From positions 31,370,609 to 31,434,608 of the forward strand of contig CM055896.1 in NCBI GenBank assembly GCA_029582155.1: a stretch of 64,000 nucleotides of DNA, read 5' to 3'. How positions within the stretch are numbered: position 1 is the first letter of the stretch; each line of letters starts with the position of its first letter. The position numbers and the translations under genes are program-made. The stretch is from Panopea generosa. Its lineage: Eukaryota; Mollusca; Bivalvia; Adapedonta; Hiatellidae. The notes beneath the pieces are model-generated. The model was not told the origin of the DNA. It made no database searches and saw nothing but the letters and a program-made list of their open reading frames with translations. Of this stretch, positions 12,097 through 63,132 are shown in pieces.

Positions 12097-12262
12097 TTGG
12101 GCGGAAGTGTTGTCCGCTCACGACAGAGGTTGCGAGTTCAATATCAAGCAATACCTGATGCTACTGAAATAACAAAACTTAATACTGGTTTTACCCAGGA
12201 AGCGGACTCAAGAACGATTGATTGAGTATTTGAGCTTTCCCAGCAATCAGCTTAATTTAATA
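12097..12262 (+). mobile_element. tRNA-derived SINE (same family as 2.3, 24.2 and 54.05 kb)
   Basis: It shares the GTTGTCCGCTCACGACAGAGG head with a tRNA-like B box (GAGTTCAATATCA, degenerate) and the TACTGGTTTTACCCAGGAAG and GCGGACTCAAGAACGATT blocks. The spurious 73-codon frame across it is not a gene. Confidence 0.65.
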
Positions 12263-12984
12263 ATATGATAATCAATATAAATTGTTATAAACTGTTTGCA
12301 TGATATACAGGAACAAGAATTCCACCGCGTAGAAATTATTATACGGATATTGTTTAATATTAATTACGATGTTTGTTGTGCAGCAATTGTTTAACGTTAC
12401 TTGTTACATAATTGATTTTGTCTAGTCTATTTCAATTGATGAATTCTCATTTATTAAGATTTGACATATAAAACGTGTTAAGTAAATGAGCCCCGAAGTG
12501 TTGTCAGTTCGTTGCTTATTGCATGAAAGAACAACAAATTACGTTTATATTAATAAAACGAATGCACACAGTTTGTACCAAAATAAACAATGTATCCATT
12601 ATCCAGCATCTTAAACAGCAAACGAATTATTTGATTGTTGTATCTGCATGTGAAAATCGATTAATGTATCAGCGTGTAGTGTACCCCAACCGCTGTAGTA
12701 AAACTAAATTGTTACGGTAGAAACGAGAACAAGATCCATAACAATATCTCGGTTACATTTTAGTTTATTACAACTAAACATAACGGTTAACGGTTATGCT
12801 TTCATGGGGTGTAAAACGAAACAATTCAAAATACAGGTTATAGTTTTATGTCAGCTTAAAAATGAACTTGATATTAGATATTATTTGTACTTCACCACCA
12901 AACAAGTGTTGCTGTGTACGCCAAAAAGGTAGTTTGTACCAGCGTTCATTTCCAGAATGTCCTTATATAAACTGGAATGTAGTA

Positions 12985-19339: not shown

Positions 19340-19915
19340 ATTTGATTTGTTTTACATTTAGCGTCATTAACAAAAACCTGTACAAAAAACCTTCTATAAA
19401 GAAGTCTCAGCTTTCGTTTAAGCTTTGTTTTTTTTTAATAAAGTACCACAGTTTCTCATTTACAGCGCCCCCTGGTGGTAAATATTTTTCCGACGATTTT
19501 CGCTGTTTTTTCCCTTGTAAATAATTAGTATTATTAAAAAAATTGATTATAATAATATTTATTTATTGATTTACTTACTTTATTTCCTGTGATAAGATTA
19601 TAACTTTTATGCAGATAAAATACAATTGTTTACATCTAATCATTACGCCGGGGCTAATCATAGTATAAACGTGGGTTTAAAAACAACGAAATTTCAAAAT
19701 TCACGGCTGATTGCGTGAACAAGCTCTGGTTCAAGTTCTTGAATTTCACATATGTTAAACTTTATTAATTCCACTAAAATATGACTGAATAAAACGAATG
19801 TGTGTTCAAGCAAATTTATTTTTCATCAATTTGAATCTAAATTAAATTGAAAAAATTAAAAAACACGACGTTTGCTTGTGATTTCGGACGAAATAAACCA
19901 TAATATGAAATTATA
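19340..19915. other. Non-coding; nothing recognised
   Basis: AT-rich sequence just upstream of the first duplicated promoter/first-exon segment. Confidence 0.4.
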
Positions 19916-19919
19916 ATAA

Positions 19920-20720
19920 GCCAACAAACTATATAATACCTGCAAAATGTTTGTCAATCTTTACTTCCTTCTCCATTGATGTAATGATCGGTATCAGTAA
20001 AAGATAATACAATTTTGTGGTATCGCAAATAAAGAAGCGTTCACGCATGCAAATCATTATGGATCAAACCAACGTTTAACTTAACACCCGGTCTATATTG
20101 TGTAATATTTTAAGTGTGTTGTATTTGTTATGTCCAATGTTTTACATTTAATGATCGTTTGAAGCTAATCCATACACACTTATGATTATGATTGATATTA
20201 TAAACGTGTACATTAAATGATTGATCAGGCTACTGTAAACAAAATATATAAAGCTGCCATATTCAATAATTATAACTTATATTACGGCCATATACCCTGT
20301 TTAAAAATGTTGTTAAATGCACTGAAAGAAGACCTACACAAACGCATAGTTAAGAAAGCAATGTCTATTCAAAGTCATTTATATGCTATACACATTATAT
20401 ATGGAGGCTAGACATGTCAAGCTTGTAGGCCTATTACTACATTTTGTTTATAAGTTATGTCAAAAGAGACTATATCAATTGTATACATGATGTCAACATA
20501 ATTTTATTAACTGGTCTAAAGGGAAGATTGGCGATATACTACCGCAATCACCCTCACCCCTGGATGTTTCATCACTAAAATCTGTTTTGTGTGTACTAAT
20601 AGTAATTATAATGATTAAAGGTAAATATTTGCGAGGGACGCCTTAGTGAGACCTATACTGGACTGTGAAAGTGGGTATGTTCTTTAGGCATTTTGGCCAA
20701 TAGAAAAATTTACCCAAAAA
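19920..20720 (+). repeat. Duplicated promoter/first-exon segment, copy 1 (decayed)
   Basis: It is collinear with 22,970-23,780: CTTTACTTCCTTCT upstream, CATTATGGATMAAACMAACG at the start codon, TTATGTYCAATGTTTTA and AATGATCGTTTGAAG in the intron, and GACTGTGAAARTGG at the far end. The two copies lie about 3.05 kb apart. Confidence 0.75.
20059..20122 (+). pseudogene. Dead signal-peptide first exon
   Basis: The ATG and the next codons (MDQTNV) align with the intact first exon at 23,110 (MDKTNV), but TAA follows at codon 7 and the GTAAGT donor is lost. The surrounding non-coding sequence still aligns, so this is a decayed duplicate rather than chance. Confidence 0.7.
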
Positions 20721-20739
20721 CATCATGTATTACATAAGA

Positions 20740-20985
20740 TTATTTTTGTCGGATCAGAAGATGATGCTTACGTACACCTCCTATAGCATTGTGTGTATTC
20801 TTGTGTGATTGTTTGCTCCAGCCACAATCACAAAGAAATGTGATGGCTAGAACACATTGCCGTAATGAATCGCCTCTTTCACTTACCAGAAAGCGTTTGT
20901 CAGCACCAGCCTTCATTAGTTCCTCACTACATAGCTCCTTCCACCATGATCCAATCTGCCTTTCAATCAATGTAAACCTTTAGGA
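20740..20985 (-). pseudogene. Fragment of a transposase-like protein (possibly Mutator-like)
   Basis: A 76-codon frame reads IGSWWKELCSEELMKAGADK, then RFLVSERGDS and CGWSKQSHKNTHNAIGGVRK. The WSKxSHK..YNAxGGV block resembles the conserved segment of Mutator-like transposase domains abundant in invertebrate genomes, normally preceded by a DG pair; here it is CDCGW. The fragment is short, lacks a start context and has no flanking partner, so it is a relic. The family assignment is tentative. Confidence 0.4.
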
Positions 20986-20999
20986 CTGACGCTTGGCAG

Positions 21000-22960
21000 G
21001 TCCAACGTTACAGTGAAATTATTCAGTAAAACTGCACAGCCCTGTTTAAAACGGCTGTATTCTCTTCACATTAAATTTAATACAGTATCTAATAGTGTTC
21101 CTGCATTTATACATGTGTTAGCCAACTTGTAAGGCTTACCAGTGTTACTTGTATTTATAGCTTGCTTTTCCTTTTTTTTTTTTTTTTCTTTTTTTTGCTT
21201 TTGTTTATATCTCCAACAGTTGGTTGAATTTCCAACGCTGCGTCCTCAGTTTAAATTTACGTGCCCTGATGAAAAAATGTTAAATTTTAATTAAATAGTA
21301 CATGGATTATTTGCTCCATTTAACCACGATTTTATTTTCAACAGATACACATGAATTATCACCGTGTTCAAATGTGTTTGTTATGATTACTGAAGGTTAT
21401 GATTACCTACCTTCATCCTACCTGATTATAGGAAAATATGCGATTATCACGAATGAATTATTTCAATTTACGAAAACAAGACAAAATTAATTTCTTACTC
21501 TTCTGCGATGACGACGAAAGTCTTGTACCTCTCTTATAACAGCAACGGAATCTGTCAGAAATAAGATTTTCATGTCAAAAACAATATTTTGATACTGTGC
21601 AATAACATCCATATTTACTCGATAAATTGTACTCTTTTGCAAATATAAAAAATACAATATTTTGGTGAAATTTTTTGACAAAATACGATATTGCACTGTA
21701 AAAATAAATTCCGCAGATGAACATAACTTCAGTAGTTCCGTTATTAGGCTGTATCGAAAATGTTAAATGACTTCACACAGATCCTTATCCCTTTTGGTCG
21801 GCATTTTGTCAAAGGCGTAACCCTGCTTATGCCGTGTTGATCTCTGCAGTATTGATTACCGCTATAATGATCATACGCGGCTTGGACTATTTTTCAATTC
21901 TTAGAAACGTTAAAGCATTTTAAACGTGTAGCAAATCAAACAATAAAACATAGTTGTATAAAATAAACAAATCGCTACAAAAAATATGAATCAATTTAAG
22001 AAGGCCGGCTATCAGTACTTTTGATACTTGGATTTTAAAAAAAAATATTTGTCGAATTCTGGATTAGCATCTCTTTGCTTTATTTATGAAGTTAAGCAGG
22101 TAATTATTTATTCTAAATTTAGGGGTTTTGTTTTCGTGTATGGAGTCTTAGATAGGCAGGTTAAAGCATAGTCAATGTTTACGCTCTTCACCTTCAAAAT
22201 AAAAATGGCGCCTTCCTTGCTGTTTGTTCAGCTTTTTTTCCAACGATGGTGACGATGATTCTTCGTTTACAAGCTTTTGCATAAAGAGTTACTTTATAAA
22301 GGTGTTTGCCGTTAAAAAATATTTATTTTTGACTATTAATTGCCATTTATAAAACAAATACTTCTAAAAATGCAACTACCTTACAATAGTATAAATGTTA
22401 TTTTCGCTTATCATAATGTAGGACTAAAATGACGGTCACATACAGCATGAATATACGTTCTTACATTTTCGTCAAGAAAAAAATCTAGAGGAAGCAATGG
22501 AATATTCTGAACTAGTCAGTCAGTATGCACTAGGCAACAAATCATATATACTTACTACGACGAGCATGTGCATTCCGATTATTGAACTGCGTTAAGTGTT
22601 AACATAAGTTAACATTCATTAGACATTAAATTCATGGTGATCGGGTGACAAACATTTTCTTGCTACATTTAAAACTTTAATAAGTTATGATGTACATGTA
22701 CAGTCCGATAATAGGCTTAGTGTACTATTACACAAATTGAAAAAAAAAGTTATTTTTGAAATATTGATAGATTTTCATGAAATAAAAACACGAACATTCT
22801 GTGAATTAAAAAAAAAACAACTTTCTTAACAAGAAACTGATAGTTGTACTTTTAATTACAAACAGATACAATGATATGAATTCATTAACTATTATATCAC
22901 TTGCCGTGATAAATTGTGTGTGTTGTTCTCATTGTATTTTGAAAATGCAAATAAACGAAA
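21000..22960. other. Non-coding; poly(T) tract only
   Basis: The stretch contains a T-rich run near 21,170-21,200 and generic AT-rich sequence. No exon, RNA gene or repeat family recognised. Confidence 0.5.
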
Positions 22961-22969
22961 ACAGATATA

Positions 22970-23780
22970 CTTGCCACAAACAAACATTTGTTATCCTTTA
23001 CTTCCTTCTAGATTGATGTAACGATAATTTTCGCCAGGAAGGTATGACAATATTACATCAGGTGTTACTTGTGTGTCATTTAAGGAAGCCTTTACACTTA
23101 CACATCATTATGGATAAAACAAACGTTTTAATTTTCACCCTGCTTATACTATGGTTTCTGTTTCAATCTACGTGTAAGTATACTCTTTTTGTTATGTTCA
23201 ATGTTTTATATTAAATGATCGTTTGAAGAAAACATAAGGATAATAAGTGTTATATTCAGCGTCTTTCATTAAAAGTTATGCTCTTCATCGAGTGAATCAC
23301 ACACAATTATAAAAAGTATAATTACCATAATTTTGGTATATGTTAAGGCAATACTTTTTATATACTGTTTCAAAAATGTTGTCATATTAAACACTAAAGG
23401 AGAGGTACCGCTCAAGATAGGGGTGGGGGGGGGCATTTAGTTAGAGAAGTAGTATATAAGTAGTATATACTATTCGAAGTCATCAGCAACATATACAAAA
23501 ACACAAGGATGCTTAACATGTTAAGCATATAAACCTCTATAAATACATAAATATTTTAAATGATATCAAAATAATTTCACTAGTGGATTCAGAGGAGGAT
23601 AGACATTATATCCCTCCACAAACATCCACCACTCACCACTAAATGTTATACTATTTTGTTTGAACAATAACGCCTTAATAATGATAATGATAAAAGGCAA
23701 ATACTGGTGAAGAACTTCTAAGTAGAACATATACAAGACTGTGAAAATGGCCATATTTCCTCGCCACCATGGACCTCACA
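22970..23780 (+). repeat. Duplicated promoter/first-exon segment, copy 2
   Basis: It aligns with 19,920-20,720 over upstream, first-exon and intron sequence and carries the intact first exon at 23,110. Copy 2 differs by small indels and a G tract near 23,424. Confidence 0.75.
23110..23173 (+). CDS. Signal-peptide first exon (receptor/lectin family)
   Basis: ATG followed by 21 codons, MDKTNVLIFTLLILWFLFQST, plus one base, ends at a consensus donor (T/GTAAGTA), so phase 1. The Leu/Ile/Phe-rich core of about 14 residues after a Lys is a typical secretory signal. The next exon with a phase-1 start is the EGF-like exon at 29,302, so this could be an alternative first exon for that gene or the surviving start of a deleted duplicate. 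No cDNA evidence is available. ATTATGG gives a suitable start context and no other ATG precedes it in frame nearby. Confidence 0.65.
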
Positions 23781-24196
23781 ACTGTAATGGTTATAAGAAC
23801 ATAAACTGATTTAAAAATGCGCGAAAGAACATGCCAAAAACGATGCACGCTGTGATGTATTTTAACTATTTAAATATGTAAATGAGTTGATACATACACA
23901 ATATACGCAATAACAAAGTTATTTTTTTATTGAAAAATGAATAACATATTAAACAAATTTCTGTAACCTCGAATAGTAAATTATATATATATACGACCGA
24001 CGTTATTGTAAATCGCTCAAGCAGACTATAAATTGAGTGCGTTCTATTGTATTAGGTTTTAACAATCTTAATTAATGAATACAAAAGAAGATTTTACACA
24101 GAGATTACTTACAAAGCACGGAATAGTAGGAAAGTTAGAAAATGACAACATGTTGGAAATTATTTTTACATAGTATTTAAGGATATGATTATGAAT

Positions 24197-24385
24197 GTGG
24201 TAGCGCAGTCGATAAAGTGTTTGTCAATCACGATAGAAGCAACGGGTTCAATCCCAGACTCGATCTGATAGTATCTAAAAAAAGAACGTTAAGTACTGTT
24301 TTAACTGTGAAATCAGACTCGAGAGCGATTCATATAAGCTCTGAGCTTCTTCATAATCGAACCAAAATACATTACAGTAACTATA
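24197..24385 (+). mobile_element. tRNA-derived SINE (family of 2.3, 12.1 and 54.05 kb)
   Basis: It has an A-box-like TGGTAGCGCAGTCGATAAAG, a B box GGGTTCAATCCC, then TACTGTTTTAACTGTGAAATC and CAGACTCGAGAGCGATTCAT with the shared ATAAGCTCTGAGCTT tail. The neighbouring duplicate has only GTGGTATTGCAG at the matching place (near 26,177), so the SINE was either truncated there or inserted after duplication next to a similar sequence. Confidence 0.7.
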
Positions 24386-25105
24386 AGATGAGGACATACA
24401 TGTACTAACATTATAGTAATAAATTGTAGTTACATGTAGTTCGCCCGTTTCATGTTACATGTAATCAATAGCACATGGAGACTAAATAATCATCTATTTT
24501 ATATGATTCCTCACCGCCAAACTAGTAATTTTCGCTTGTCACAATTTCCTCAATTTTCACCTAACCTATACCAAACATTGTATTGTCTTAAAACAGAACT
24601 ACCAAGTGCATTTGTGCTCGGTACAAATTATCATATCAATTATCACAAGTTGTATGGTGCACGAGTGTAAAACAACCCATGACATATTGAGACGTCACAT
24701 CATACCACGAATGACGGAAACAAATATGCTGGACTTTTTCTTGCTTCTTATAGATATGATATGTTAAATAAATGGTAAATGTACTGTTATTCTGAATTAT
24801 GATATAAAATGAATCTTGCATTCGTTCTTGTTTGATATCTAATTCATCAAACACGTTATACGTGAAACTTGCTTAATATAATTTAGCTAATTCGTTTAAT
24901 CAATTCATTTATAAATGAACACTCATGTAAGATCCTCTATTTTTATAATTATCAACTGCTGTGTTAGATTTTACATTCAATTTGGTTTGTTGTATACTGA
25001 TTGTTAAATAAACGAATTATAATGATATCCCTACATATGTGTAAATACACAGACCGCTAAGGCAAATCAATCGCACAAGGATCAGTGATTGCAATTACGA
25101 ATTAC

Positions 25106-25113
25106 ACTTCCTG
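25106..25113 (+). promoter_or_regulatory. ETS-type site upstream of the 25.23-kb first exon
   Basis: ACTTCCTG, the reverse complement of the CAGGAAGT ETS consensus, lies 124 bp before the ATG and is followed by the block ATCATTATACCACAAGAAATAT, which is conserved before the 27.12-kb exon. Position conservation between duplicates supports a promoter role; factor identity is inference. Confidence 0.3.
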
Positions 25114-25229
25114 TTTGATCATTATACCACAAGAAATATACTATTAAACCAGTGTCGTATTATAATTTTGTTAGTGGCGTGACAAAGAAAGAAAGAAAGA
25201 AAGAAGCTATACACATAGTTAATAAAACA

Positions 25230-25299
25230 ATGGACGTAACTGATATAGTGTTAATTTACACCTTGCTTACAATGTTTGTCCCCAATACTCATTATTCAC
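25230..25299 (+). CDS. Signal-peptide first exon (receptor/lectin family)
   Basis: ATG plus 23 codons and one base, ending at TCAC/GTAAGTG (phase 1). It encodes MDVTDIVLIYTLLTMFVPN, then THYS, a short secretory signal with a hydrophobic core IVLIYTLLTMFV. It is clearly homologous to the exon at 27,121 (MDEQMIVLIYILFTM) and of identical length, 70 nt. It lies about 1.9 kb upstream of that exon in a duplicated segment. It has an open frame, a start context AACAATGG and an intact donor, so it may be functional. Confidence 0.7.
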
Positions 25300-25504
25300 G
25301 TAAGTGCATTTTTAAGCTGATTTAACTAGAGTTAGTGTACTGTACGAGTATTTTTAAAATATGCCGCATTCAATGTATCTGACTGATTATATTTCGTGTA
25401 CTAAACAACTAGAAAAAGACAGATCAGATCAAAACTGAATAATTCATTAACGCATTAACAAGAAAATGCAAACTGCTTAAAGGCATAAGTACGTGTTACA
25501 ACAA

Positions 25505-25805
25505 TTTTCCGAGTAATACGGCCATGACGACTCAAATGAAAAATCATCATACTTGGTTTACAGACATGTACATCCACCCTACTCCCCGGACCTCGCACCC
25601 GTTTACTTTGCGTATTTCACTAAACTGAAAGCGCATCTGTGCGACAAATGATTCAACACGGTCGATAAATTAATGAAAGAAACATTAAAATCCATAAAGG
25701 GTTCGTCACAGAATGGTTTGGATTATTTTCGAAAATTGTGTCAAACGCCATAGAAGGTGCGTTGAGGATAACAGAGAATATTTTGAAAAGGAATGACTTT
25801 TATGT
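25505..25805 (+). pseudogene. mariner-type transposase C-terminal fragment
   Basis: The frame reads HPPYSPDLAPVYFAYFTKLK, the hallmark block preceding the third catalytic residue of mariner transposases. Here the catalytic Asp position of LAPxD is Tyr. It continues FNTVDKLMKETLKSI and NGLDYFRKLCQTP with stops at several places. No terminal inverted repeats were seen. It sits between two duplicated first-exon segments. Confidence 0.7.
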
Positions 25806-27017
25806 GGACATCGTGTAAATAACGTTATGACGTCATAACACCTGTATGTTACAGTGTTTAAGTTAAAACTGTTGTGTATAACATTCAACTTATAATTTCC
25901 CGATATATGTCACGATATATGTCACCCTCGTACATAATTTACTCAGTTTTAAAACTTATTACTATAGAAAAGGGAATAAAATTACCATAACAAAATTGCT
26001 GTAACCTAGAAAAGCATATATACACGACCAACGTTATTGTTAAACATTCAAGCAGACTATGAATTGTGTGCTTCTACACAGAGATCACTTACAAACCACG
26101 GAACTTAGGGACAGTTTGAAAATGACAACATGTTAGAAATTATAGTTTACATAGTATTTTAAAGATATACTTATGGATGTGGTATTGCAGTATGTAACTT
26201 ACAGAACATTCATTTGAGAGTAAATAATCAATTATTATCTATGATTTCTCACCGTCTAAATGGTAAATTCGCTTGCAACTATTTTGCACGGTTAAATTAA
26301 ACCAATTAGGTTACTTTCTTAAATCAAAACTACCAAGCGATTTATATCATTGGCGCACGGTGCAAGTTATCATATAAATTATCACATAGGTGCAGGAGTG
26401 AAATAAACTCATGACATATTTTTAACAATAAACTACTAGAAGTGTAATATCAACTTCTGATTTATCGTTCGGTGCTTTCCATATAAAATATGTTTTGTAC
26501 GTTGAATACCGATCTATGTTCCGCTTTTTTCTAAAAAGATATAAATGACGCCGAGTTATCATGATAAAATGACGTTATTTTGAGACGTTACATCATACCA
26601 CCAATAACGGAAACAATTATTCCGGGATTTTCCTGGTTCTTTATAGTTATGATATGCTAAATAAATGGTTAGTGTACTATTTGTCTGAGTTATGTGATAA
26701 AATGAATCTTGCATTAGTGCTCATTTATTATTGAATTTATTAAACACCTTGGCAAAAAATATATGCAAAGCTTGGCAGTGCATCGCTTGATATATTTTTG
26801 CCAACTCGTTTAATAAATACAATAAAAAAAGAGCACTCATGTATGATTCTCTATATATTCTATACATATCAGCTGTGTTGTAGTCTTTACATTTATATTA
26901 GTTCATTGCGTCCTGCTTGATAAATAAACTAACTATAATTATAGTCCTTACATAAATGTGTAAATACACTGAACGCTAAATAAACTTATACGGATCAGTA
27001 ATTACAATCATGAATTT

Positions 27018-27027
27018 CTCTTCCTGT
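27018..27027 (+). promoter_or_regulatory. ETS-like box upstream of the 27.12-kb first exon
   Basis: CTCTTCCTGTT sits about 100 bp before the ATG at the position equivalent to the ACTTCCTG box of the 25.23-kb copy, again followed by GATCATTACACCACAAGAAA. Confidence 0.3.
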
Positions 27028-27120
27028 TCGATCATTACACCACAAGAAATATATCAGGACAGTGTCGTATTTGTCAATTGCGTGACAAAGAAAGACGCTT
27101 CATAGATATATAATATTATA

Positions 27121-27190
27121 ATGGACGAACAAATGATAGTGTTAATTTATATTTTGTTTACAATGTGTATTCTGAAGGATCGTTATACAC
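27121..27190 (+). CDS. Signal-peptide first exon of the EGF-F5/8 gene
   Basis: ATG plus 23 codons and one base, ending CACAC/GTAAGTG (phase 1). It encodes MDEQMIVLIYILFTMCIL followed by a polar KDRYT. The hydrophobic core and length fit a cleavable signal peptide. Being nearest to the EGF-like exon at 29,302, it is the default first exon: the split codon (C + AT) joins in frame. The gene product is predicted to be secreted or membrane-anchored. Confidence 0.7.
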
Positions 27191-27269
27191 GTAAGTGCAG
27201 TTTTATGTTTAACACGTTTACCTGAATTTAACTAGTGTACTGTAAGGATTTTATTGAAATATGTCGCAT

Positions 27270-29290
27270 TCAAAATATATGACTGTTCCGTTTTTCACAA
27301 TGTATGTATTACACAATAAGAAAATATGCGCTCGATCAGATAAAAACCGAAGAATTCATATATTCTCATATATATACTCGTAACTGATTAGGTTGTTATG
27401 TGTATATATCCTTATATTAGCTGTGGTAGTATTGGTTTATGAATATGTAACGGTAGTGTGCACGTTTCCCATTTAGAGACATCGGATCCCGTTATTGACA
27501 TATCCACTTAAACTCTATCCACTACACTACATGTACCACCCGCTTAGATTTAGCACATCCCACCGACATAAACACTTATTTCTTACACGTTTTGTCAAAG
27601 TTGATTATCTTTAATAAATAATCAATGATAATATTTGTGTTTTGCATGTATTTCGTGTTTCAATATTCAACAGGACAATAACCTTAACATTATCCTTTTC
27701 CGCCTTCAACATTAAAGAGTTACACAGCCAGTAAAGGCGAATACCAAACTAACTTCTAGTTAGAGCTTAACTTCGGAATGTGTTTTTTTTTTCTATGACC
27801 CGAGACTTTCGGAACACTATTATCATCTACCGATACACATACACACATCTAAACATAATAGTTGCGTGTTAACTTTTTATTTTAATAGATATGTTCCTAA
27901 AATAGTCTAGTCATATTGAGCTTTGTCTAGTGTGCACATGTTAAATCAGTATATTCAATCCATTTGACAGAGTATAGGTATTGATCATCGTCACTTCAAT
28001 TCGCCTGGATTTGAATACTACGATATCTTAATAGTAAATACATACAGCTGGCAGCCAATACAGAACATTTCAAAACGATTAATATACTTCAATGTCGTAT
28101 TTAACTTCTTATTTTAAATACCAGTAGATGTTTAGTTTACATTGAATAACGTTAATGTTTATGTAGGGTATTTGATATTGAAATTGAATTGGGATGGGTG
28201 CATGTTCACCTAGTGTAATGATAGGCGGTTAATATTATTCGTGATTTGGAAGTCAAGTATAAACTGACTAAACGATACAACATTTAATTGTAGGGGAGGT
28301 TATCAAAACTATTTAAATATAATAAATGTATAGTTTGAGTATATGTACATAAAACGGTATGGAACACGGAAGAGAAGTTTTAAAAATCAATCAAGAAAAG
28401 ATCTATTATAATAAGTACTAAGTAATTATTATTATATAATAGGAAAAAGTGTTAAAATTATTAATGTATTCATGAAATGAATCTAAGCTTGATGTTGAAA
28501 TGACGGCATTGCAACCATATTAATTTGAAGTTGTGAAATCAAAGTCGTACTGATGATATGAATATAAAGTCATGATATTGAAAAGTAGATATGCGGTTAG
28601 TCATAATGTTAGTTTAGCATGACAATATCCTAAATTGACTTTATAGTCATAGTTCTCACTTTTCATAGCTGAACAACAATATAGCATTGCAGTTATAGCA
28701 ATATATCCAGATAGTAGAGTAAGCGATTATTGAAAATAAGCCCTGATCTGACAACAAAGATCAGTTGCCGCTCACGCTTCCCCCTCCCTTCCCCCTCCAC
28801 CCCCCCCCCCCCACCCCCAAACACACACTTCTCCCTCACATTATGATGTTTTTACTTGATAGATGTATACTTCACGTTATTGCTATCTGGCAGTATTAAA
28901 GCTGCGCTGTTACCCAACAGCTATTTTATTATGCTTTGATATTGTGAAATACGGAATGTGTGAATCGTTATCATTGCGTTATCTTATGTGCTACTAATGG
29001 TGACTTAATGAACTAATAAAGTTTAAGCAGGAAGACATAATATAGGTTATAATCAGATTCGACATTATCTAATTGGTTACGCGGCTGCCAGTATAACGAT
29101 AACTATAACATCGACTAAATGACTTGAAGAAAGTACAGTACCAGTTGCTCTTTCGGAATGTTCTGTGAGGTCTTCTTACAACTAAAAAATACGCCTTGTA
29201 TATTCTAACTACAAAGTACAATTTTCATGAATGTGAAATAAACAATTGATAAAAACTGTTATTGTTTCTTACAAATTGGACTTTATTGTT
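27270..29290. other. Intron 1; C tract near 28,800
   Basis: No exon or mobile element recognised. A C-rich run at about 28,785-28,815 is the only simple repeat of note. Confidence 0.5.
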
Positions 29291-29301
29291 GTATCTTACA
29301 G

Positions 29302-29448
29302 ATGCATCGAATACACGTGTACTGAAGTTCGGACCCACATACAAGTATATGTGTCACTGTAAGAATGAAACGGAGCAATGTGGTGATGTGGATGGAACTT
29401 GTACTTCCGGCTGTGCTGATGCTTGGATGGGACCCGGATGTCAATACC
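29302..29448 (+). CDS. EGF-like Cys-rich exon of the F5/8 gene
   Basis: It has a strong acceptor (TTGTATCTTACAG) and a donor (TACC/GTATGT), is 147 nt long, and is symmetrical phase 1-1. It encodes YKYMCHCKNETEQCGDVDGT, then CTSGCADAWMGPGCQY. The CxC...C...GxC..GC...WxGPxC pattern with six Cys is the EGF-like or laminin-EGF-like module that precedes or follows F5/8 lectin domains in many bivalve receptor-like proteins. It should fold as a small disulfide-bonded extracellular domain. Nothing suggests decay. Confidence 0.8.
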
Positions 29449-29449
29449 G

Positions 29450-31140
29450 TATGTATAACAGCATTATTGTGTTGACAGCACACGTCATTATAATATTTTT
29501 TACACCTACAATAACATACAATTGACATAAAATTTAATTAAATTGAAATAAAAAATACGAAATAAGCAATGCTCAAAGGTTGACAAACGATTTATTTCAG
29601 TATTTTAAGCTTCCCAGGTCGTTATGTGAGATACTATTCAACAATAAGGAGATAGATTTAAAGCAGAAGTGATAATCAATGTGACCCCATAGAATTCCAA
29701 TTTCGACGAAAAAAGGAATTTCGTGTACTGCATAATTATATAAAAAAACAAGTTGGGATAGACGAATAACATATACATAGAGAAGATCATAAATAGTCAC
29801 GTTCTCGTTTTCAAAGAGCGAAAACAAAGTACTCAGTGGAAATCGAATAAGCAACATCGAAGCGGAGAATTGGCGTGACGTTTAAAGGAAATGATAATAA
29901 TGATAATGATGATGATGATAATGAAACTCATTAAGAAACAGTTGAACTTACATTTAGAACTAATATTTGTTTCTTAAGGGATTTTACAAAGTGAGTTCCT
30001 TCGATAATCCTTTAAAAAGAAATAGAAAAACACAATAAAGAACATTTAAGACATGATCAACTTTGAGTTTTGATATTAACAATCAAATTATCTGAGACAG
30101 TTATTTAGATATGACAGAGGTCAAGGGGATAGTGCAGGAAATTGAAGGCGAGTTTTATATTAAAATTTATTATGATAGAATATACACAGTTTATAAGTTT
30201 CAGCTTGACATATTCAGAGATTTATTTATTTGAATTTTATTTCGACATAACAGTTCATATCTTGTATTAAATGTCAATGTCAATTGTCAATGCACATGGC
30301 ACTTTAATGAAATATTTATTTACTTGCTACTTACTTATCAATTATAGTGATAAAACTGGAAGGCATTTTGCATAATTTGTCATACATTATGAACAAACTA
30401 TTGCAAATTTAAGGTCAGTTTCACAATATATATCTCATTACAAAGCAGAAACTAAATTGGGACTTTTCATAGTCTTTTATGTTTTTATTTCATTTTAGCG
30501 CGATATAGTGATGTGCTTTTGTATCATAACTGTTACTGTTTTGAGAAAATGGTTCAAGACTAGCGTGTGTTTCATGAATTACTACACCAGTCTCATGCTA
30601 AATGGAGACGACATCTGAGTAAATATCATTCAGTAAATAATATCAAAAGTGTTTCAAAGTGCTGGAACATGACTGTTTACAACTATAAAACAATACTTTC
30701 ATTGATATTTTGCATCTATCCTTTGGAGGGGGTGGGGGGGGGGGGGGTGAGGGGGTCCTATTCTCGTATATCCATTTTCTCTGCCTGTCGGTCATACTTG
30801 TCTCATTCCCTCAACTCTTTACAGTTGTTAATATATTGCCTCTAAACATAGACAATTAATATCTTCTCCATAAACAATGAAGCCTACGGAAGGGAAATGT
30901 AATTTGATGTTTACTTGTACTAAGGAACAATCAGATATACAGATTGGAATTTAGGGAATATACTGTATATCGTTCCGCTTTCATGAAATACCATCAACGC
31001 TGTTTTATTTGAAAGGATTGACATTATAGACCTACATTAATGACGTAAAATACGATATATACTGCTCTTGCTGTATTTGTCTTGATTCGGTGCATTCGTA
31101 ATGCATTTGTGTCTGAATACATTTTAATATTGTTTCTCTG
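29450..31140. other. Intron 2; (GAT)n and a G tract
   Basis: A short GATGAT/AATGATAAT run lies at about 29,889-29,925 and a G-rich tract at about 30,727-30,757. No exon or recognised element. A - strand frame at 29,597-29,857 lacks splice context and similarity. Confidence 0.45.
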
Positions 31141-31148
31141 TGATTCAG

Positions 31149-31346
31149 GGGATGTAGCATTTAATCAAATTACCAATCACAAAAATAACATTTTCCCACC
31201 GGAGTATTCTGAACTAGCCGTCGATGGTAACCTGGAAACATGTAGCAGAACAAATAAAAGTACTAACAAACCGTGGTGGAGGTTTTGGCTGCCTCAGAAA
31301 GAACTCATCACGGGTTTAGTTCTGATCACGGACTCAGAAGTATCAG
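31149..31346 (+). CDS. First half of F5/8-type (fucolectin-like) domain
   Basis: The acceptor is GATTCAG and the donor TCAG/GTAATA; 198 nt, phase 1-1. It encodes DVAFNQITNHKNN, then YSELAVDGNLETCSRTNKST, then KPWWRFWLPQKELITGLVLI. The features DGN...TC and PWWR.xLxxxxxI are the conserved N-terminal part of F5/8 type C / fucolectin (eel-fucolectin-tachylectin) domains, which bind sugars such as fucose. It joins in frame with the EGF-like exon before and the second-half exon at 34,570. The fucose-contact residues cannot be assigned with confidence by eye. Confidence 0.85.
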
Positions 31347-32265
31347 GTAATATCATAAATTTCGTATTTTAAAGCTGTCTTCTGAGAATAGGACAAATTC
31401 AACACATTTCAGATGCATGTTTATTTCTTTTATAGGTTTATTTTACTAACAATTTTAGCAATAATGCGTCTTTCAAAGTTGTTGTATCATTTGTAACCAT
31501 GATATGGTAGAGATATTAATACACTTAATTTTAATAATCAATACACTCGCAAAACTATCTTCGTACACTTAACTTTTCATAAGGATTCACCATAAATGTC
31601 ATCAACAGTCACGAACCTAGTTCAAGCCTTATAAGTGTTGATCAATTTTTTAATTGGATAATTGTGTAGCACAGATTTGAGAAATATAATGATATTAAAA
31701 TGTTGTTTATTGTCGAGTTCTAGTCAGAGAGTACTCTTAGCTTGTGAAACTCCTATTCTATTCCACTTTATTGTAATGATTAATAATAATGGTCTTACTG
31801 CTACAAAAGTGCCTTAAAAACAACATTTGTCTTAAAGAAATAGATAAGAATTTCTAATGCCGTCAGTAAAATATAATTAACAGAACAGAACATATATTTT
31901 ATTAGACTTATACATGTACTTTCCCGTCGGAACATATACATGATTGTATACAAAATTCAATAAACACGTGAAAGGTTATCACACAAAGGCACGCACACAC
32001 GCACAGATGCATACACCCGCCCGCACACACACATACGATTATTATATTACTATTTTTTTATTCAGTAAGTTATTTACAATTGCACCTGATAGCATTAAAC
32101 ATATATATTTGATGTTGTTATACATGTACATTATTAATTTAATCTTTTTGAGGATAAACTTTAGTTGTAATTTACACCGTTTCTTATTGTAAATGCTCCT
32201 TTCAAGTAAAAAGGTAAACTATTCACATTTTTTCTTCGCTTATACTTGCATTTATTCAATAAATT
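31347..32265. other. Intron 3, left part; CA-rich microsatellite
   Basis: It holds a (CGCACA)n-like run at about 31,988-32,035 and no exon. The remainder of the intron is occupied by an antisense LINE. Confidence 0.5.
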
Positions 32266-32269
32266 CAAA

Positions 32270-34520
32270 TATACTTGGGTTTTTATGATAATATTTTTAA
32301 CCTATAAGTTACGAATATGTTCGTACACTGGACAAATCAGAATAAAGTGAAATGCACCTTCTATATCTCTTGAATTACAAATTGTACACTTTCTGTGGTT
32401 TCTTGCTTTTCTATTTTATGTTATTTTCCAGTTTCACTTCTGAGTGTATGTGCTGATAGCCGCAATTTTGTCATCAATGGTTTTAATTTAGAAGGTATCA
32501 TGTATAAGTATATCTCATATCTAAACACATTTTTTAATTGTTTATACATATCCTAAACACTGTTATTTACAATGTCATTTTGACATTTCTGTATAAAAAT
32601 ATATAATACTCTTTGTTTAAATAAGACAACAAAATTATTCAGATTGTTGCTATGCAGCTCATTCCAAATATAATTAAAACCAAAACTCATTTAACAATGT
32701 TTTGATATTATAAGTCCTATTATTACATCCTTTCTCACAATCTTTCAATGAATCTTCATACAAAGTAGGAATCTTTATATTTTTGAGGATACAACTTTAC
32801 TCCAATACCTAATTATTCTGATATATCTTGATATATACATGGGGTACAATGTTTCTGCCAAGTTCCCCATACAATCCTGCATTACTAGTAATACATGTTT
32901 CCATAATTTTAGATTTACACGTTCAATTTATTTTGACTTCGTATAATTTCCGCTCCATAATTTAGAATTAACTCATCAAAGGCATCAAACAGTTGACAAC
33001 ACGTTTTAGGCTTAAAGTTGTATTTCTTCATATTTGCAATAAGCGCATTCAATGTCTTTAAACCTTTACCTGCAAATGTTTCCTGATTTATTATAAATGC
33101 TTCGGTAAAAGTAAACACAGTTCCTAAATAATAAAAAACATTAACCACTTCCAAATTTATCCCAGCTCTTAAATGATCTCTTGTTCTGAAAACTTATACT
33201 TTAGTTTTATCTTCATTAACCTCTCTGCCCCATTTATTACAATACGCTTTCAACATATCTAAATAATATTATAATTCCGCGTGTGTTTGGCCAATTAAAA
33301 CCATATCATCAGCAAAAACAATATTGATTTAAACATATTTTATTGCCAAATATGTACAAGTGCATTGCAATTGGGTCGGGCCACAAGTGATACCCACATT
33401 AGTTACAGCCCTTCCCTAAAAATGAGTTAACAAATAACATGGATATGGCTAAACATAAATAATAACATATATTAACATAGAGTTGAGTTTAACTGTTAAC
33501 TAATGTTGCCTTTCACAGACATACATGCACGCACGCACGCACTCACTCACACACAATCGCATTTACACACACGCATTCAAAAGAGAGAGAGAAAAAAGAA
33601 AAAGGGATATTATTTACGTTATGTCATTGATACTTAGTCCTGACATATTATTACCCTGTAAAAACAGTTCTAGATCATCAATAAACAAAGCGAATATAAT
33701 TGGTGAGATTACCACCCCTTGCCTTAATACAACTGAATACTCGAAGAAGTCCGAATATGAATTACAGCACCATACAATTTCCCTTTGTTGTACATGTCCG
33801 TAATTACCCGTAACAATATTCCGTTTAGACGAGACCTGTACAATTGCATGCATTATGCATTTCGATATACACTATCATAAGCCTTGTTAAGTCTACAAAT
33901 GCACAAAATAGGCGTTTGGTTCCATTTAAGAATAGTAAGTGCTTGTTAAACAAGCATAGCATCTACGGTTGAGCAACTCGCCCTAAACCCAAATTGTAAG
34001 TCCGATAGTATAATGTTTCCCTCACACCATTTACTTATTCTTTTGTTAAGGACACCTGTAAATATCTTAGACATACAACTTACTAGCGTTATTCCCCTAT
34101 TAATATTAACGTAGTCCAATACCATTAAATAAGTATGTCAGGTACGGAGCAATGATACCCACCATTTCATAGAAATATTCATTTAAAGGCAATCTCCTGA
34201 ACAAGCTTTATTTCTTTTCAGTCTTTTCACCACGGACAACACCTTAAATATACTTATTTCCTGGTCCAACTCATCACTATTACACTTCAAATCATAAACG
34301 TCATCACTACTACAGAAATATTCAACATCTATATTTTAACATTTGAAATAGCATTCGATAACTCAGAAAAATACATATAAAACGCCTCTTTCCTTTTTCG
34401 TCAAAAAAGTTTCCCAAAATCTTTCGGTTTTATATTCCTCATTTTTTCAATGTCTCTCCTTTTTCTTGAATTCCTAAGCTCGGCGTTTTTTGTAATTAAT
34501 CCTTTATACATTTTTTTTAT
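32270..34520 (-). mobile_element. 5'-truncated LINE in antisense, intron 3 of the F5/8 gene
   Basis: Reading the - strand from 34,520 down: LITKNAELRNSRKRRDIEKM, then RT segments including FGFRASCSTVDAM, RQGVVISPIIFALFIDDLEL, the catalytic FADDMVLIG (near 33,300), VVNVFYYLGTVFTFT, a thumb-like LFDAFDELILNYGAEI and a terminal CTICNS...FHFILICPVY zinc-finger-like block. The order fits a non-LTR element of the jockey/CR1-like type. The endonuclease is absent (5' truncation) and stops and frameshifts are frequent. Its 5' edge stops about 50 bp before the exon at 34,570. Confidence 0.75.
33325..33610. repeat. Insertion splitting the LINE RT just before the FADD motif
   Basis: The LINE frame stops after GLSINDIT and resumes at VFADD about 290 bp away. 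The intervening DNA is non-coding and contains a (GCAC)n/(CACA)n microsatellite at about 33,521-33,570. It is either a nested insertion or a microsatellite expansion. Confidence 0.5.
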
Positions 34521-34569
34521 CAATAGCCATAATACATTTAATTTAATCAAGTCTTGTTTATGCTTTCAG

Positions 34570-34794
34570 GTAATTTTGAAAGCTATAAAGTAACGGTCGA
34601 AGGCGCAACCACGAAAGCCATGGGAGAAAAACATTATACCAACCAACAACCATGTTATGCTACATATGGCTGGAATCCTCCTAATCATATAATCAACGTG
34701 ACATGTAATCAACCTTTGTTGAACAATCAAGTCAGGATCACGCTAGATGGCACTGATACACAACTCGTCATATGTGATATTAGAGTTTATGGAG
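34570..34794 (+). CDS. Second half of F5/8-type (fucolectin-like) domain
   Basis: The acceptor is ATGCTTTCAG and the donor GGAG/GTAATA; 225 nt, phase 1-1. It encodes NFESYKVTVEGA, YTNQQPCYATYGWNPPNHII, VTCNQPLLNNQVRITLDGTD and QLVICDIRVYGG. The C..PP..I.V.C..P..GN/NQV.I.L ... L.ICDI.VYG arrangement is the conserved C-terminal half of fucolectin-type F5/8 domains with its Cys pair. Together with the exon at 31,149 it completes one lectin-like domain. The open phase-1 donor implies at least one more exon; a transmembrane exon like the one at 616-733 would fit, but none was found within the next 28 kb. Confidence 0.85.
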
Positions 34795-42899: not shown

Positions 42900-42955
42900 A
42901 TAAGTTTATTCTGTTCAATCACGCGAAAACTCTTGGTGCCCAGAAGAAATTTGCA

Positions 42956-43488
42956 GCAGCAGTAGTAGTAGTAGTAGTAGTAGTAGTAACAGCAGCAGCA
43001 GCAGTAGAAGTAGTAGAAGTAGTAGTAGTATATTAAAAGCAGCAGCAGCAGTATTATGAGTAGTAGTAGTAGCAGTATTAACAACAGAAGCAGCAACAGC
43101 AACATCAGCAGCAGTAGTAGTAGTATTAACAGCAGCAGCAGAAGCAGCAGCAGTAGTAGTAGTATTAACAGCAGCAGCAGAAGCAGCAGTAGTAGTAGTA
43201 GTTGTTGTAGTTTTAACAGCAGTAGCAGTAGTAGTAGTAGTGGTAGTCGTAGAAGTAGTAGTATCAACAGCAGCAGTAGCAGCAATAGTAGTAGTAGTAG
43301 TAATAGAAGTAGTATTAACAGAAGCAGCAGCAGTAGTAGTAGTAGTAGTAGTAGAAGTATTAACAGCACCAGCAGCAGCAGCAGTAGTAGTAGTAGTAGT
43401 AGTAACAGCAGCAGCAGTAGAAGTAGAAGTAGTAGTAGTAGTATTATCAGCAGCAGCACGTCTGTAGTAGTAGTAATAGTAGTATTAA

Positions 43489-43520
<32 letters not shown>

Positions 43521-43854
43521 ATAGTAGTATTAATAGCAGCAGCCGCAGCAGCAGCAGCTGTAGTAGCAGTAGTAGTAGTAATATTAACAGCAGCAGCAGC
43601 AGCAGTAGTAGTAATAGTAGTAGAAGTAATATTAACAGCAGCAGCAGCAGAAGTAGTAGCAGCAGTAGTAGTAGTAGTAGTAACAGCAGCAGCAGTATCA
43701 ATAGTAGTAGTATTAACAGCAGCAGCAGCAGCAGCAGCAGCAGTAGAAGTAGTAGTAGTAGTATTAACAGCAGCAGAAATAGCAGCAGCAGTAGTATTAG
43801 TAGTAGTAGAAGTAGTAGTGTTGGTGATAGTAATAGTAGTAGTAGTAGTAGTAA

Positions 43855-43906
<52 letters not shown>

Positions 43907-43930
43907 TGTGGTAGTAGTTGTAAAGTATGT
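42956..43930. repeat. Long composite AGT/AGC trinucleotide microsatellite
   Basis: About 970 bp consists almost entirely of AGT and AGC triplets in alternating blocks, with AAC, AGA and ATT interruptions, ending in a purer AGT run (about 43,850-43,915). It gives poly-Ser, poly-Val/Ala and poly-Leu frames on both strands, which are artefacts of the repeat. Confidence 0.95.
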
Positions 43931-44411
43931 TTACTTTCGTTGCCCCAAAATACCTATCTTTTCAGAAAGAAATAGCAAAAATTTTAATAACGATTACATG
44001 CCGGATTACATGCCGGAACTGCATGTCTCAAAAAACTTCCGACACTATGGCGTCACGCAGCGTGAGCTAATCAGTGCCAGTGCGTTATTGTAATATCAAT
44101 GTTACCAATGACCCAGTAATCTCTGCTGGTGGGGTCATTAAAACGACAAAGACCATCAGTCTTAATTTAAAGGACATGATCATTGCCGTAAAGTGTCGAT
44201 GTTTGCCGAAGCATCAGTCGAATAGGTAATTAATATATACGAGTTATTTTAAAAAAGTGTAAAAAGAACAAGAGAGATAAAATCTTATTAAAATATAAGT
44301 ATTATCAATAGAAGCTTAATAAAAAAAAACATTGTTATATGTATCAGTACAACAATTTTTTTTTTTTTTTTTTTTGTGTTGTTTTTTTTTTTATTAAATT
44401 TATCAGTACAA

Positions 44412-44640
44412 GCCGGGCCCGATTAGCTCAGTCGGTTACGCGTCTGACTATCAATCCAGGGGTCGTGAGTTCGAATCCCCGCCCGGCAACAGTCAACGTG
44501 ATAATTGATATACGACATGGTGTCTCATTATCATTCGTCTCTCACCACTGATTCAAGTGGGAAAGTTATCAGTTACTTGCGGAGATGGGGTGTCTCGAGC
44601 TCTCGATGGCATAAAAATGACGCTAAATATTCAATCAATC
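44412..44640 (+). mobile_element. tRNA-derived SINE, best copy of the TAGCTCAGTCGG family
   Basis: The head has GCCGGGC (44,412) pairing with GCCCGGC (44,481), a TAGCTCAGTCGGTTACGCG A-box region and a GAGTTCGAATCCCC B box. The body runs through ATTGATATACGACAT, CATTCGTCTCTCACC and GGGAAAGTTATCAGTTAC, and ends CTCGATGGCATAAAAA then (CAAT)n-like. A few extra bases before TAGCTC and a poor T stem show it is a SINE head, not a functional tRNA. Relatives lie at 45.4, 45.7, 60.8 (antisense) and 62 kb. Confidence 0.8.
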
Positions 44641-44644
44641 ATTA

Positions 44645-44940
44645 ACAGTACAAATAAGGAATGATGTGTAATAGTAGTTGTAATAGAAATAGTCACAGTA
44701 TTAAACATAATTAGGACAATTATGACTGGGGGCAATATTGTCCTAGTTTATGAAGAGATTTATTATAAACTATAACTTAGGATACTGTACAGCTGTTGAC
44801 GAATTTGTTTTATTATTGGGGTTTTATATCTGTTTTAACATATTTAAAGTAAATACGGCGTATCCAGTTTTACTGGTGTAAGAAGAAACACAGAATCCGA
44901 GTAGAACAACCATACTTTCCATGGGTATCTTTATTTATAT
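44645..44940. other. Non-coding spacer
   Basis: Nothing recognised between the SINE and the second microsatellite. Confidence 0.4.
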
Positions 44941-44946
44941 TTATAC

Positions 44947-45235
<289 letters not shown>

Positions 45236-45420
45236 GTTCAGAGTAACATAGTTCTGACTGTATCACTTCACTGAGTATTGATGGGCAAATGACAATGAGC
45301 CGTAATGATGTATATAAACCATTAGGGACTGTTGCTGACCCAGCAGTGATATAATAATTTGAATTAATAGTAATCATTGTTAATGTGATTTTTTATCTTT
45401 AAATAGAGGATCTTGGATCG

Positions 45421-46059: not shown

Positions 46060-46760
46060 GGGTAGGTAGAAACACTAACTTTGTCACGCATGGATGGATT
46101 TTGTTGATACTAACTACAAATGATCAACATAACATGACAACGTGTTGCGAGTAAGATCCAAATCCGTACCTCAAAGGTCAAGGTCACAATTTGAGTTTGA
46201 CAAAACTTTGAGTCTGTATGAGATTTCGTGTCCGACCTGTTACTTTGTCATGCATAGATAAATTTGAATAATACTTGCTACAAATGTTTAACATAACATG
46301 TCGACGTGACGAGAGTAAGACCTACACCCGTACCTCAAGGGTCAAGGTCACAATTTGAGTTTCTTTGACAACACTTTGAGTCTGTGTAAGATTTTGTGTC
46401 CGACCGGTAACTTTGTTATGCATAGATGGATTTTATAAATACTTGCTACAAGTGATCAACATAACATGGCGACATGTCCGAGTTAGACCCATACCCTTAC
46501 CTCAAAGGTCAAGGTCACACTTTGAGTTTGTTTGACAACACTTTCAGTCTGTTTGAGATTTCGTATTTGGCCTGTAATTTTGTCATGCATAGATAGATTT
46601 TGTTAATACCAGCTACAGATTATCAACATAACATGACGATGTGTCGCACGTTACACCCAGAATCCCACTTAAACGGTTAAGGTCACAGTTTACCTTTGTT
46701 TGATGACACTTTTAGTATGATTGAGATTTCGTTAAGTTTGTCACCTATGGATAAATTTCA
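46060..46760 (+). repeat. Tandem array, ~165-bp unit, with AGGTCAAGGTCA boxes
   Basis: About 4.2 imperfect units. The marker TCAAAGGTCAAGGTCACA occurs at about 46,171, 46,335, 46,502 and 46,670 (last copy degenerate). Other shared blocks are GATCAACATAACATG, CACTTTGAGTCTGT, GAGATTTCGTGTCCGACC and TTTGTCATGCATAGAT. Confidence 0.85.
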
Positions 46761-46784
46761 GAAACACTTGGCTCAATTATGCGC

Positions 46785-47930
46785 GACATTACATTTTCTC
46801 ACTCGATATTAAACATCCTTACTTGACTATAGATTTTTCTTACTGGGCACTAGATTTTCTAATCTATCTATACTCGACATCCTTACACAATATTCAAATT
46901 CTTTATTTGAAACTTTATTTTTTATACGCAACAATAGATTTTCTCACTTGATACTCAAAATCCTAACTTGACTATAGATTATTCTTACTGGGTACTAGAT
47001 CTTCTAATCTGTATTTACTCAACAATCTTACACAGCATTCAAATTTCTTATTTCACACTATATTTTCATACGCGACACTACATTTTCTCGCTTAATACAC
47101 AACATCCTTACTTGACAATAGATTTTTCTTACTGGGCACTTTATTTTTTAATCTATATTTACTCAACATTCTTACACAACATTCAAATTTCTTATTTGAC
47201 ACTATATTTTCATATGCGACACTACATTTTCTCACTTGATACAGAACATCCTTATTTGAATATAGATTATTCTTACTGGGATTTAGATTTTCTAATCTAT
47301 ATTAACTCAACATCTTAACACTACATTCAAATTCGTTATTTAACACTATATTTTTATATGCGACACTAGATTTTCTCACTCAATACACAACATCCTTACT
47401 TGACTACAGATTTGTCTTACTGGGCAATAGATTATCTAACCTATATTTTATCAACATCATAACACGACATTCAAATTCCCTCTTTGACACTATAATTTCA
47501 TACGTGACACTAGATTTTCTCTCTCAATCCGCAAAATCCTTACTCGACTATATATATTTCTTAATGGGCACTATATTTTCTAATTTATATATACTCAGCA
47601 TCCTTACATGTCATTTTATTGCCTTATTTGACACTATATTTTCATACGCGACATTGGATTTTCTCACTCAATACACAACATCCTTACTCGACATTATATT
47701 TTTCATACTGTGCACTTGATTTTTTAATCTGTATATACTAAATATCCTTACAGAACATTCAATTTTCTTGTTTGACACTTTATTTTCATACGCGACACGT
47801 GCTTTTCTCACTCAATACACATCTTTATTCAACGCTAGATTTTTCTTACTGGGCATTAGATTTTTTTATCTATATAAACTCAATATTTGAGTTGACATAT
47901 GAATTTCTTACACAACACTTAATTTCAAAA
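46785..47930 (+). repeat. AT-rich tandem array, ~146-bp unit, ~7.5 copies
   Basis: Each unit has ATTTTCTCACTCAATACACA, CATCCTTACTTGAC, TTCTTACTGGGCACT, AGATTTTCTAATCTATAT, TACACAACATTCAAATT and CACTATATTTTCATACGCGA. Copies begin near 46,790, 46,930, 47,085, 47,230, 47,375, 47,515, 47,660 and 47,805. The 116-codon frame across it is a repeat artefact. Confidence 0.85.
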
Positions 47931-49219: not shown

Positions 49220-49600
49220 TCAATAAAAAATAACGAAAGATAAAAAAAGTTTTTTTTTGAAATTCACTGTGCTGTGTTCTACAATAAAAGTCATATATTT
49301 TTCCATATTGTTTGGTATGGCATTTATATACTTTCCAAACTTTCCATTTTTTTGCATTATAAGATGACCATCATATCCTCTTAAATTATGAAATACAACG
49401 GGAATATTTTTACTTAATCTAAATGATTTATTACACCTGTTATGAGCCTTACCACGATATTTTCCCGTATCATGACAATGGTCTCTTACAGGGTAATCCC
49501 ACCTTAGGTTATCTTCCGTATATTCCTTCTCGCAAATATGAAAAGAACTTCTTTGCTTAATTAACACATTCTGATTCAAATTGACCCTTTTCTGAAAAGG
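49220..49600 (-). pseudogene. Polinton-type DNA polymerase B fragment (inverted copy)
   Basis: On the - strand a 119-codon frame contains HICEKEYTEDN, a WDYPVRDHCHDTGKYRG block with AHNRCN, then VVFHNLRGYDGHLIMQ. This is the endonuclease-VII-like Cys/His segment plus the start of the exonuclease region found in polymerases of Polinton/Maverick-type elements. The first Cys of the metal site is Phe here, while HCH...CN is retained. It corresponds to about 58,555-58,800 of the + strand copy and stops abruptly on both sides, so it is an isolated fragment. Confidence 0.7.
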
Positions 49601-49667
49601 TCAAAACTATTGTTATTTGTAACTTCTGTTCTCGCGTATAAAATGATATTTGCCATTCCAGCTCTTC

Positions 49668-49860
49668 ACTGACTGAATTCAGCCAAACTTTATATTTAGA
49701 AGTCAGTTTGCAACTTCTGCTTTTGAAGGAAACCATTTTGCTTGCTGGCTGAATTCAGTCAGTATTGGGCATCTCACAATACATCATGAAAACTACGGAA
49801 AGTATTTTATACATTTTATATCGTTCTTCTGTAAAATATGCTTGGCTGAATTCAGTCAGT
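49668..49860. repeat. 19-bp inverted repeat element with CTGAATTCAG palindrome
   Basis: ACTGACTGAATTCAGCCAA (49,668-49,686) and TTGGCTGAATTCAGTCAGT (49,842-49,860) are exact reverse complements. A third copy, GGCTGAATTCAGTCAGT, lies at 49,747-49,763 in the same orientation as the right arm. Confidence 0.7.
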
Positions 49861-49869
49861 AGCATCACA

Positions 49870-51600: not shown

Positions 51601-51633
51601 ATTTAATCTATGTTAGTTCTTTTGGCATAACAT

Positions 51634-51640
51634 TTTTATT
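51634..51640 (-). terminator. Poly(A) signal of the minus-strand gene
   Basis: AATAAAA on the - strand about 66 bp past the stop codon of the terminal exon at 51,706-51,878. Confidence 0.4.
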
Positions 51641-51705
51641 AGAATAATTAAATGATGCCATTATATCTGGTACATTGCACTTTCCACCTTTTGGTCATTA
51701 CACCA

Positions 51706-62928: not shown

Positions 62929-63132
62929 GCAAAAATTTGGCTTTCGGAAGACAAACAAACCAGAGTACATATAGCGGATCTAGCCCTAATGCTAAGCTGA
63001 CAGTAGATGGCGTGATAGGAACTTCTGTAGATGAATGTAGCACTACACTGGTACAGGATCAACCATGGTGGAGTGTTGACCTCAAGCATATAATGCGTAT
63101 ACAATCTATACGAATCTCGACTGATATTCTTG
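62929..63132 (+). CDS. First half of an F5/8-type domain (second gene or domain)
   Basis: The acceptor is TATATTTAAG and the donor CTTG/GTAAGTA (consensus); 204 nt, phase 1-1. It encodes GKNLAFGRQTNQSTYSGSSP, then AKLTVDG, then DQPWWSVDLKHIMRIQSIRI. NLAxGRxTxQSxxY, VDG, PWWxVDL and I..I.I are the classical N-terminal F5/8 type C signatures, better conserved here than in the 31,149 exon. No frame damage. Its second half should lie beyond the right edge. It is either a further domain of the same gene as the 27-34.8 kb exons or a separate family member; the 28-kb gap favours the latter. Confidence 0.85.

Follow-up and report, generated by a model that had tools for sequence, protein, structure and literature searches.

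In the UGT1 and clustered protocadherin genes, much of the mature protein is encoded by the first exon. As excerpts of the literature describe them, both are variable-first-exon clusters, located ahead of common downstream exons (PMC3325998, PMC1885805), and each IgLON gene has two alternative promoters, 1a and 1b (PMC5288359). For the F-type lectins, the fucose motif is given, again in an excerpt, as HX24RXDX4(R/K) (PMC5712786). Among the papers listed by our literature search, none dealt with clusters of signal-peptide first exons in molluscs, which is no proof of their absence.

The window, by which we mean the whole stretch of DNA that was analysed, comprises 64,000 nucleotides from the geoduck Panopea generosa. 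It corresponds to C3:31370609-31434608, C3 being contig CM055896.1 of the 1.47-Gb assembly GCA_029582155.1; searches covered the whole genome. Judging from the sequence, we think it likely that the window contains one receptor gene in which alternative promoters are clustered in tandem, every one of them leading into a signal-peptide first exon of its own. The gene would be made up of a signal peptide, an EGF-like domain, an F5/8 domain, probably a second F5/8 domain and probably a transmembrane segment with a short basic tail.

First exons of the window

The first exons are located on the forward strand and occupy slots E1 to E4. The original prediction of four homologous ATG exons, the one at 20059 dead and the other three intact, is exact in its coordinates. 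The E1 slot (20059..20130) contains the dead first exon, with a stop at codon 7 and a lost donor (no GT is present at the homologous place); open E1 relatives are found elsewhere in the array. The E2 exon (23110..23173, MDKTNVLIFTLLILWFLFQST) has 64 nt; the E3 exon (25230..25299, MDVTDIVLIYTLLTMFVPNTHYS), which has a long tree branch, and the E4 exon (27121..27190, MDEQMIVLIYILFTMCILKDRYT) have 70 nt each. As had been claimed, these three have an open frame from the ATG and end in phase 1 at a GTAAGT donor, and the body exons are phase 1-1. A common phase with a working donor is found in three of the four window exons and also array-wide, with losses and some weaker donors.

The exons are contained in two pairs of duplicated segments, likewise on the forward strand. 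The partner copies 1 and 2 of segment A (19908..20681 and 22943..23757) contain E1 and E2, and those of segment B (23895..25447 and 25931..27359) contain E3 and E4. Within the pairs the homology is strong, with alignment scores of 213 for 20059/23110 and 341 for 25230/27121, each reached by none of 500 shuffles. Across the two pairs, free local alignment gives marginal scores, which are attained by 23 to 65 of 500 shuffles. When the alignment is anchored at the ATG, none of 150 shuffles is as high for 23110 versus 25230 or 27121, two are for 20059 versus 27121, and 16 for 20059 versus 25230. A profile of E1 plus E2, run on the window, has 27121 (E=1e-4) and 25230 (0.04) as its top foreign matches, and the profile of E3 plus E4 matches 23110 (0.05), with 20059 absent from the list. 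Anchored alignment and profiles place the homology across the pairs in register, best between E2 and E3/E4 and weakest between E1 and E3. Like a variable-first-exon cluster, the four exons form a tandem array of homologous first exons.

Repeated sequence of several kinds is present in the window. One repeat family, which we take to be a tRNA-derived SINE, is found at 24197-24367 (inside copy 1 of segment B), 2298-2505, 12106-12285 and 54056-54253. Beside copy 1 of segment B, positions 25560-25830 look, by eye, like the end of a relic transposase of the mariner type. Further downstream, 42900-45400 is a long trinucleotide-rich stretch, 46076-47925 is a tandem repeat with units of about 140 bp, and 49220-60160 contains broken open frames that resemble a Polinton/Maverick DNA polymerase and include two opposite pieces 85% alike. 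Scanning the window for Rfam families and tRNAs gave nothing.

Signal-peptide junction and gene body

Body exon 1 (29302..29448, forward strand, phase 1-1) is shared, codes for the EGF-like domain and contributes the Ala at position -1 of the predicted cleavage site. At the junction, all three open window exons have a small residue at -3 and this Ala at -1: T-Y-A, S-H-A or T-H-A precede SNTR. Signal-peptide cleavage follows the -3/-1 rule, on which the site predicted here is based. Since the predicted cut falls one residue inside the shared exon, the mature proteins would be identical and regulation alone would differ. By the same rule, the first exons code for signal peptide only and would not vary the mature protein in the manner of a variable-first-exon cluster. 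Different signal peptides had been proposed for this locus; the exons do differ, but the mature protein is probably unchanged if cleavage takes place as predicted.

The EGF-like label of 29302-29448 derives from its cysteine pattern, Pfam giving no match at E up to 1. This exon is without two cysteines that are present in the other 27 rows read, as if one disulfide pair had been lost together; one of the missing cysteines coincides with a 9-base length difference to the closest siblings. Body exons 2 and 3 (31149..31346 and 34570..34794, both on the forward strand and phase 1-1) encode the N and C halves of the first F5/8 type C domain. The joined domain scores 29.1 bits with PF22633, above the cut-off of 27.8, and 23.2 bits with PF00754, under its cut-off of 28.2, and FBP32 (1e-7) is the only PDB entry that it matches at E up to 1. 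Like this F-type lectin, as described in the excerpt cited above, it is an F5/8-like domain and has the cation motif h2DGx (AVDGN). The fucose motif, in the form given there, is found neither in the complete F5/8 domain of the window nor in the N half at 62929, so that an F5/8-type domain is present but the designation as a lectin-type receptor is unsupported.

The N half of a second F5/8 domain is located at 62929..63132 (forward strand, phase 1-1), its limits having been set by eye at an AG acceptor and a GTAAGT donor. Such N halves are found about 1 kb past the first domain in ten or so other units, 12-15 kb off in the three closest siblings and 28 kb off in the window. From this series of spacings, the 62929 exon most likely belongs to the EGF-F5/8 gene of 29302, behind a long repeat-filled intron. 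A transmembrane exon with a short basic tail, at about 642-743 on the forward strand, has about 30 related matches on C3 and may terminate the upstream gene (EGF exon at C3:31339678). The dead F5/8 N-half exon at 4725-4883, on the same strand, is a relic of another array unit; it has an in-frame stop and 40% amino-acid identity to the 31149 exon (tblastn E=1e-8).

Among the first exons, no relic of a body exon (EGF, F5/8 or transmembrane) scores above 60 shuffles, the closest having 4 of 60 as high; the same test finds the dead F5/8 exon near 4.7 kb, for which none of 60 shuffles is as high. A six-frame motif scan of the window for further EGF or F5/8 exons returned the known ones only, and so did a scan for transmembrane exons on the forward strand outside 42.5-45.5 kb. 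A single set of body exons, as originally predicted, holds for 20-34.8 kb; for the whole window it is incomplete, given the relic at 4725-4883 and the exons at about 62929 and about 642-743.

Recurrence of the cluster along the contig

The genome lists contain the best 40 scored matches, which for the EGF exon are the best 40 of 43 candidates. This exon has at least 40 matches in the genome. All those listed belong to C3, where 39 are located in the interval from 29.1 to 32.5 Mb and a single one at 27.3 Mb. Among the 28 rows read (one place appearing twice, as L006 and L031), two have a broken EGF exon and the other 26 an open one. F5/8 C halves, second F5/8 N halves and transmembrane exons are likewise scattered along the array. 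Searches with E4, E2 and E3 found 20 copies of the E2 slot, 20 of the E3 slot and at least 24 of the E4/5 slot. Slot members precede 24 of the 40 EGF matches listed, at least two members being present before 23 of these, and the slot order E1, E2, E3, E4/5 is invariant on both strands. None of the listed EGF matches lies inside any first-exon series (24 bodies; a relic that is short or old might escape detection). Both in the window and across the best 40 genome matches, the downstream exons form one common set, with none between the first exons. That the layout recurs in about twenty sister genes suggests a real regulatory switchboard rather than the debris of lost genes.

The coordinate layout of the series was compiled by hand from the search lists. 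It omits divergent first exons before the EGF matches at 31553227 (two, 67 nt), 30460644, 29618043, 29735507, 29847972 and 30413964. Upstream stretches of 10 kb were taken for 20 of the 39 other EGF matches listed, and the remaining copies were taken in pieces. For the series at 32325325, the nearest following EGF match is 36 kb away. The units at C3:31219754 (-) and 31237017 (+) are arranged head to head, and the (-) unit is frameshifted in both first exons found.

When 78 first-exon stretches are placed in a tree, each slot forms a single branch, with supports of 99/97 for E2, 98/99 for E3, 100/97 for E4, 99/98 for E5 and 87/90 for E1. The single branches argue that the cluster is older than the gene amplification. 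Defects shared between units, such as an E3 stop plus an E5 ATT in two of them, indicate that units were copied as blocks and therefore are not independent. At 12 loci between 29.5 and 30.5 Mb (L017-L028), the 10 kb upstream of the EGF exon contain one first exon in five cases and none in seven (E up to 1e-3); these loci weakly suggest that a single first exon may be the older state.

Constraint on the first exons

Twenty-two units were coded by hand, a first exon being called open when ATG, frame, phase 1 and GT were present (GTAAGT was not demanded). By this definition, 10 of 13 E1 copies, 14 of 19 E2, 13 of 20 E3 and 16 of 20 E4/5 are open. Of the 22 scored units, 18 have two or more open exons among E2, E3 and E4/5, and one has none. 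Donors weaker than GTAAGT are GTACGT, in 6 of the 10 open E1 copies, and GTTAGT, in 4 of the 16 open E4/5 copies; in the 32492691 unit the donor of E2 is GC, and this exon was scored as broken. The scoring omitted the units 30627161 (two E5-type exons), 31339678 (E2 with ATT) and 31553227. Three E1 copies (30866527, 31076360 and 27267186) were unassigned to a unit, and the E4/5 exons of units 31957438 (which did not align) and 32013601 and the E2 fragment 32432893 were unscored. Complementary loss between slots does not go beyond chance (no exon is open in one unit, against a mean of 0.77 units after shuffling; P=0.84). Two units have an open E2 while E3 and E4/5 are both broken.

On the class trees of 66 copies of equal, standard length (the shortened dead E2 copies being outside this test), 105 substitutions fall in 323 exon columns and 188 in 424 flank columns, an exon rate of 0.73 of that of the flanks (p=0.011). 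When the slots are taken one by one, E1 alone reaches p<0.05. Exon changes have no third-position excess (36/28/41, p=0.29), and pN/pS is 0.93 for E1, 0.88 for E2, 0.58 for E3 and 0.50 for E5. If E3 alone were selected, the neutral odds of the other four slots being open over the stems would be, roughly, 7e-4 or 1.3e-4. Constraint on the first exons thus appears detectable yet mild, as might be expected of redundant signal peptides.

Among the window exons, the E2 DNA is identical (64/64) in four other units, the 50-base upstream flanks of which differ at 1-5 sites, and the E4 DNA is identical at C3:32490507; both exons look kept. E3 differs from E4 at 21 of 70 exon sites and at 139 of 657 flank sites, and its tree branch is 0.2. 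It looks near-neutral, evolving much as its flanks do, and for duplication B taken alone the neutral survival of an open E3 (0.09-0.15) is not improbable.

The CTTCCT element

Each open window exon is preceded by the hexamer CTTCCT on the forward strand, at 23001..23006 before E2 (-109 from the ATG), 25107..25112 before E3 (-123) and 27020..27025 before E4 (-101). The element was first noticed in the window and then counted in the copies, which share descent: it is present 82-123 bp 5' of the ATG in 40 of the 44 copies with enough upstream sequence, and in 35 of these 40 at 101-110. As background, 2.5% of 170-base stretches drawn at random from the window contain it. CTTCCT is also the top hexamer in a class-balanced scan of 45 stretches; it is present in all slots, and the bases around it differ between them. 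Its core resembles what we take to be an ETS site, which would fit expression in blood cells.

Discussion

In the mechanism that we propose, each promoter would start its own transcript, and each first exon would be joined to the shared acceptor at 29302, with the other first exons skipped. Cleavage one residue after the junction would remove the signal peptide, giving the same mature receptor either way, and the time and place of its production would be set by the promoter chosen. The cluster would have been born by local duplication of promoter and first exon in an ancestor of the subfamily, and would then have multiplied along with the whole gene. Alternative promoters, as originally predicted, are favoured by the ordered series before 24 of the 40 EGF matches listed, the single-branch slots and a promoter-type element at a near-fixed distance; the near-neutral window E3 speaks less well for them, and the use of each exon stays putative.

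It is distinctly unlikely that only the proximal first exon (E4, 27121) is used, E2 and E3 being decaying leftovers of promoter duplication that are still open by chance. Such a history would accommodate the dead E1, the flank-like evolution of the window E3, the many single copies broken elsewhere and the weak pN/pS values, but it has to contend with the E2 exons that are identical in four units with differing flanks, with the two units in which E2 is open beside broken E3 and E4/5, and with the keeping of CTTCCT in all slots. The alternative raised originally, in which whole genes were tandemly duplicated and the bodies between the first exons then lost, we consider highly improbable. Bodies do die in the array, as the relic at 4725-4883 demonstrates, but neither the relic test nor the genome matches listed give any support for this between the first exons: no relic there exceeds shuffles, and no listed EGF match is inside the series before 24 bodies. 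Moreover, the spacing of duplication B, about 1.9 kb, is smaller than the distance between E4 and the EGF exon, 2.1 kb, and the slots are older than the amplification. Long near-repeats make the array prone to misassembly, yet an artefact with collapsed or falsely duplicated haplotypes is barely credible when the paired segments differ by 21-26% in their flanks, by indels and by private insertions, and when the same order recurs on both strands.

A cluster of alternative promoters leaves room for an extension that we regard as doubtful: the slots may be promoter classes shared, in one order, by about two dozen paralogous receptor genes of the array, a cell picking gene and promoter class together, possibly cell by cell or stage by stage. 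As the signal peptides are discarded, the cluster would then serve regulation alone, as a switchboard copied together with each gene.

The locus resembles UGT1 and the clustered protocadherins, as far as the excerpts describe them, in having tandem homologous first exons and one downstream set, the first exons of UGT1 each having their own promoter. It differs from both in that the first exons of the geoduck window code for signal peptide only, and in that the cluster as a whole recurs ahead of some two dozen bodies. With the IgLON genes, on the basis of the excerpt, it shares alternative 5' ends feeding one body, but here four homologous slots have arisen by tandem duplication and are carried by many paralogues. 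If all promoters are used, this would be a receptor family with a UGT1- or protocadherin-like layout, multiplied along a chromosome, in which the variable part is discarded and selection has therefore acted on regulation alone. The about twenty replicate clusters, with individually dead promoters, form a natural series, and the value of promoter redundancy is thereby directly testable with RNA data.
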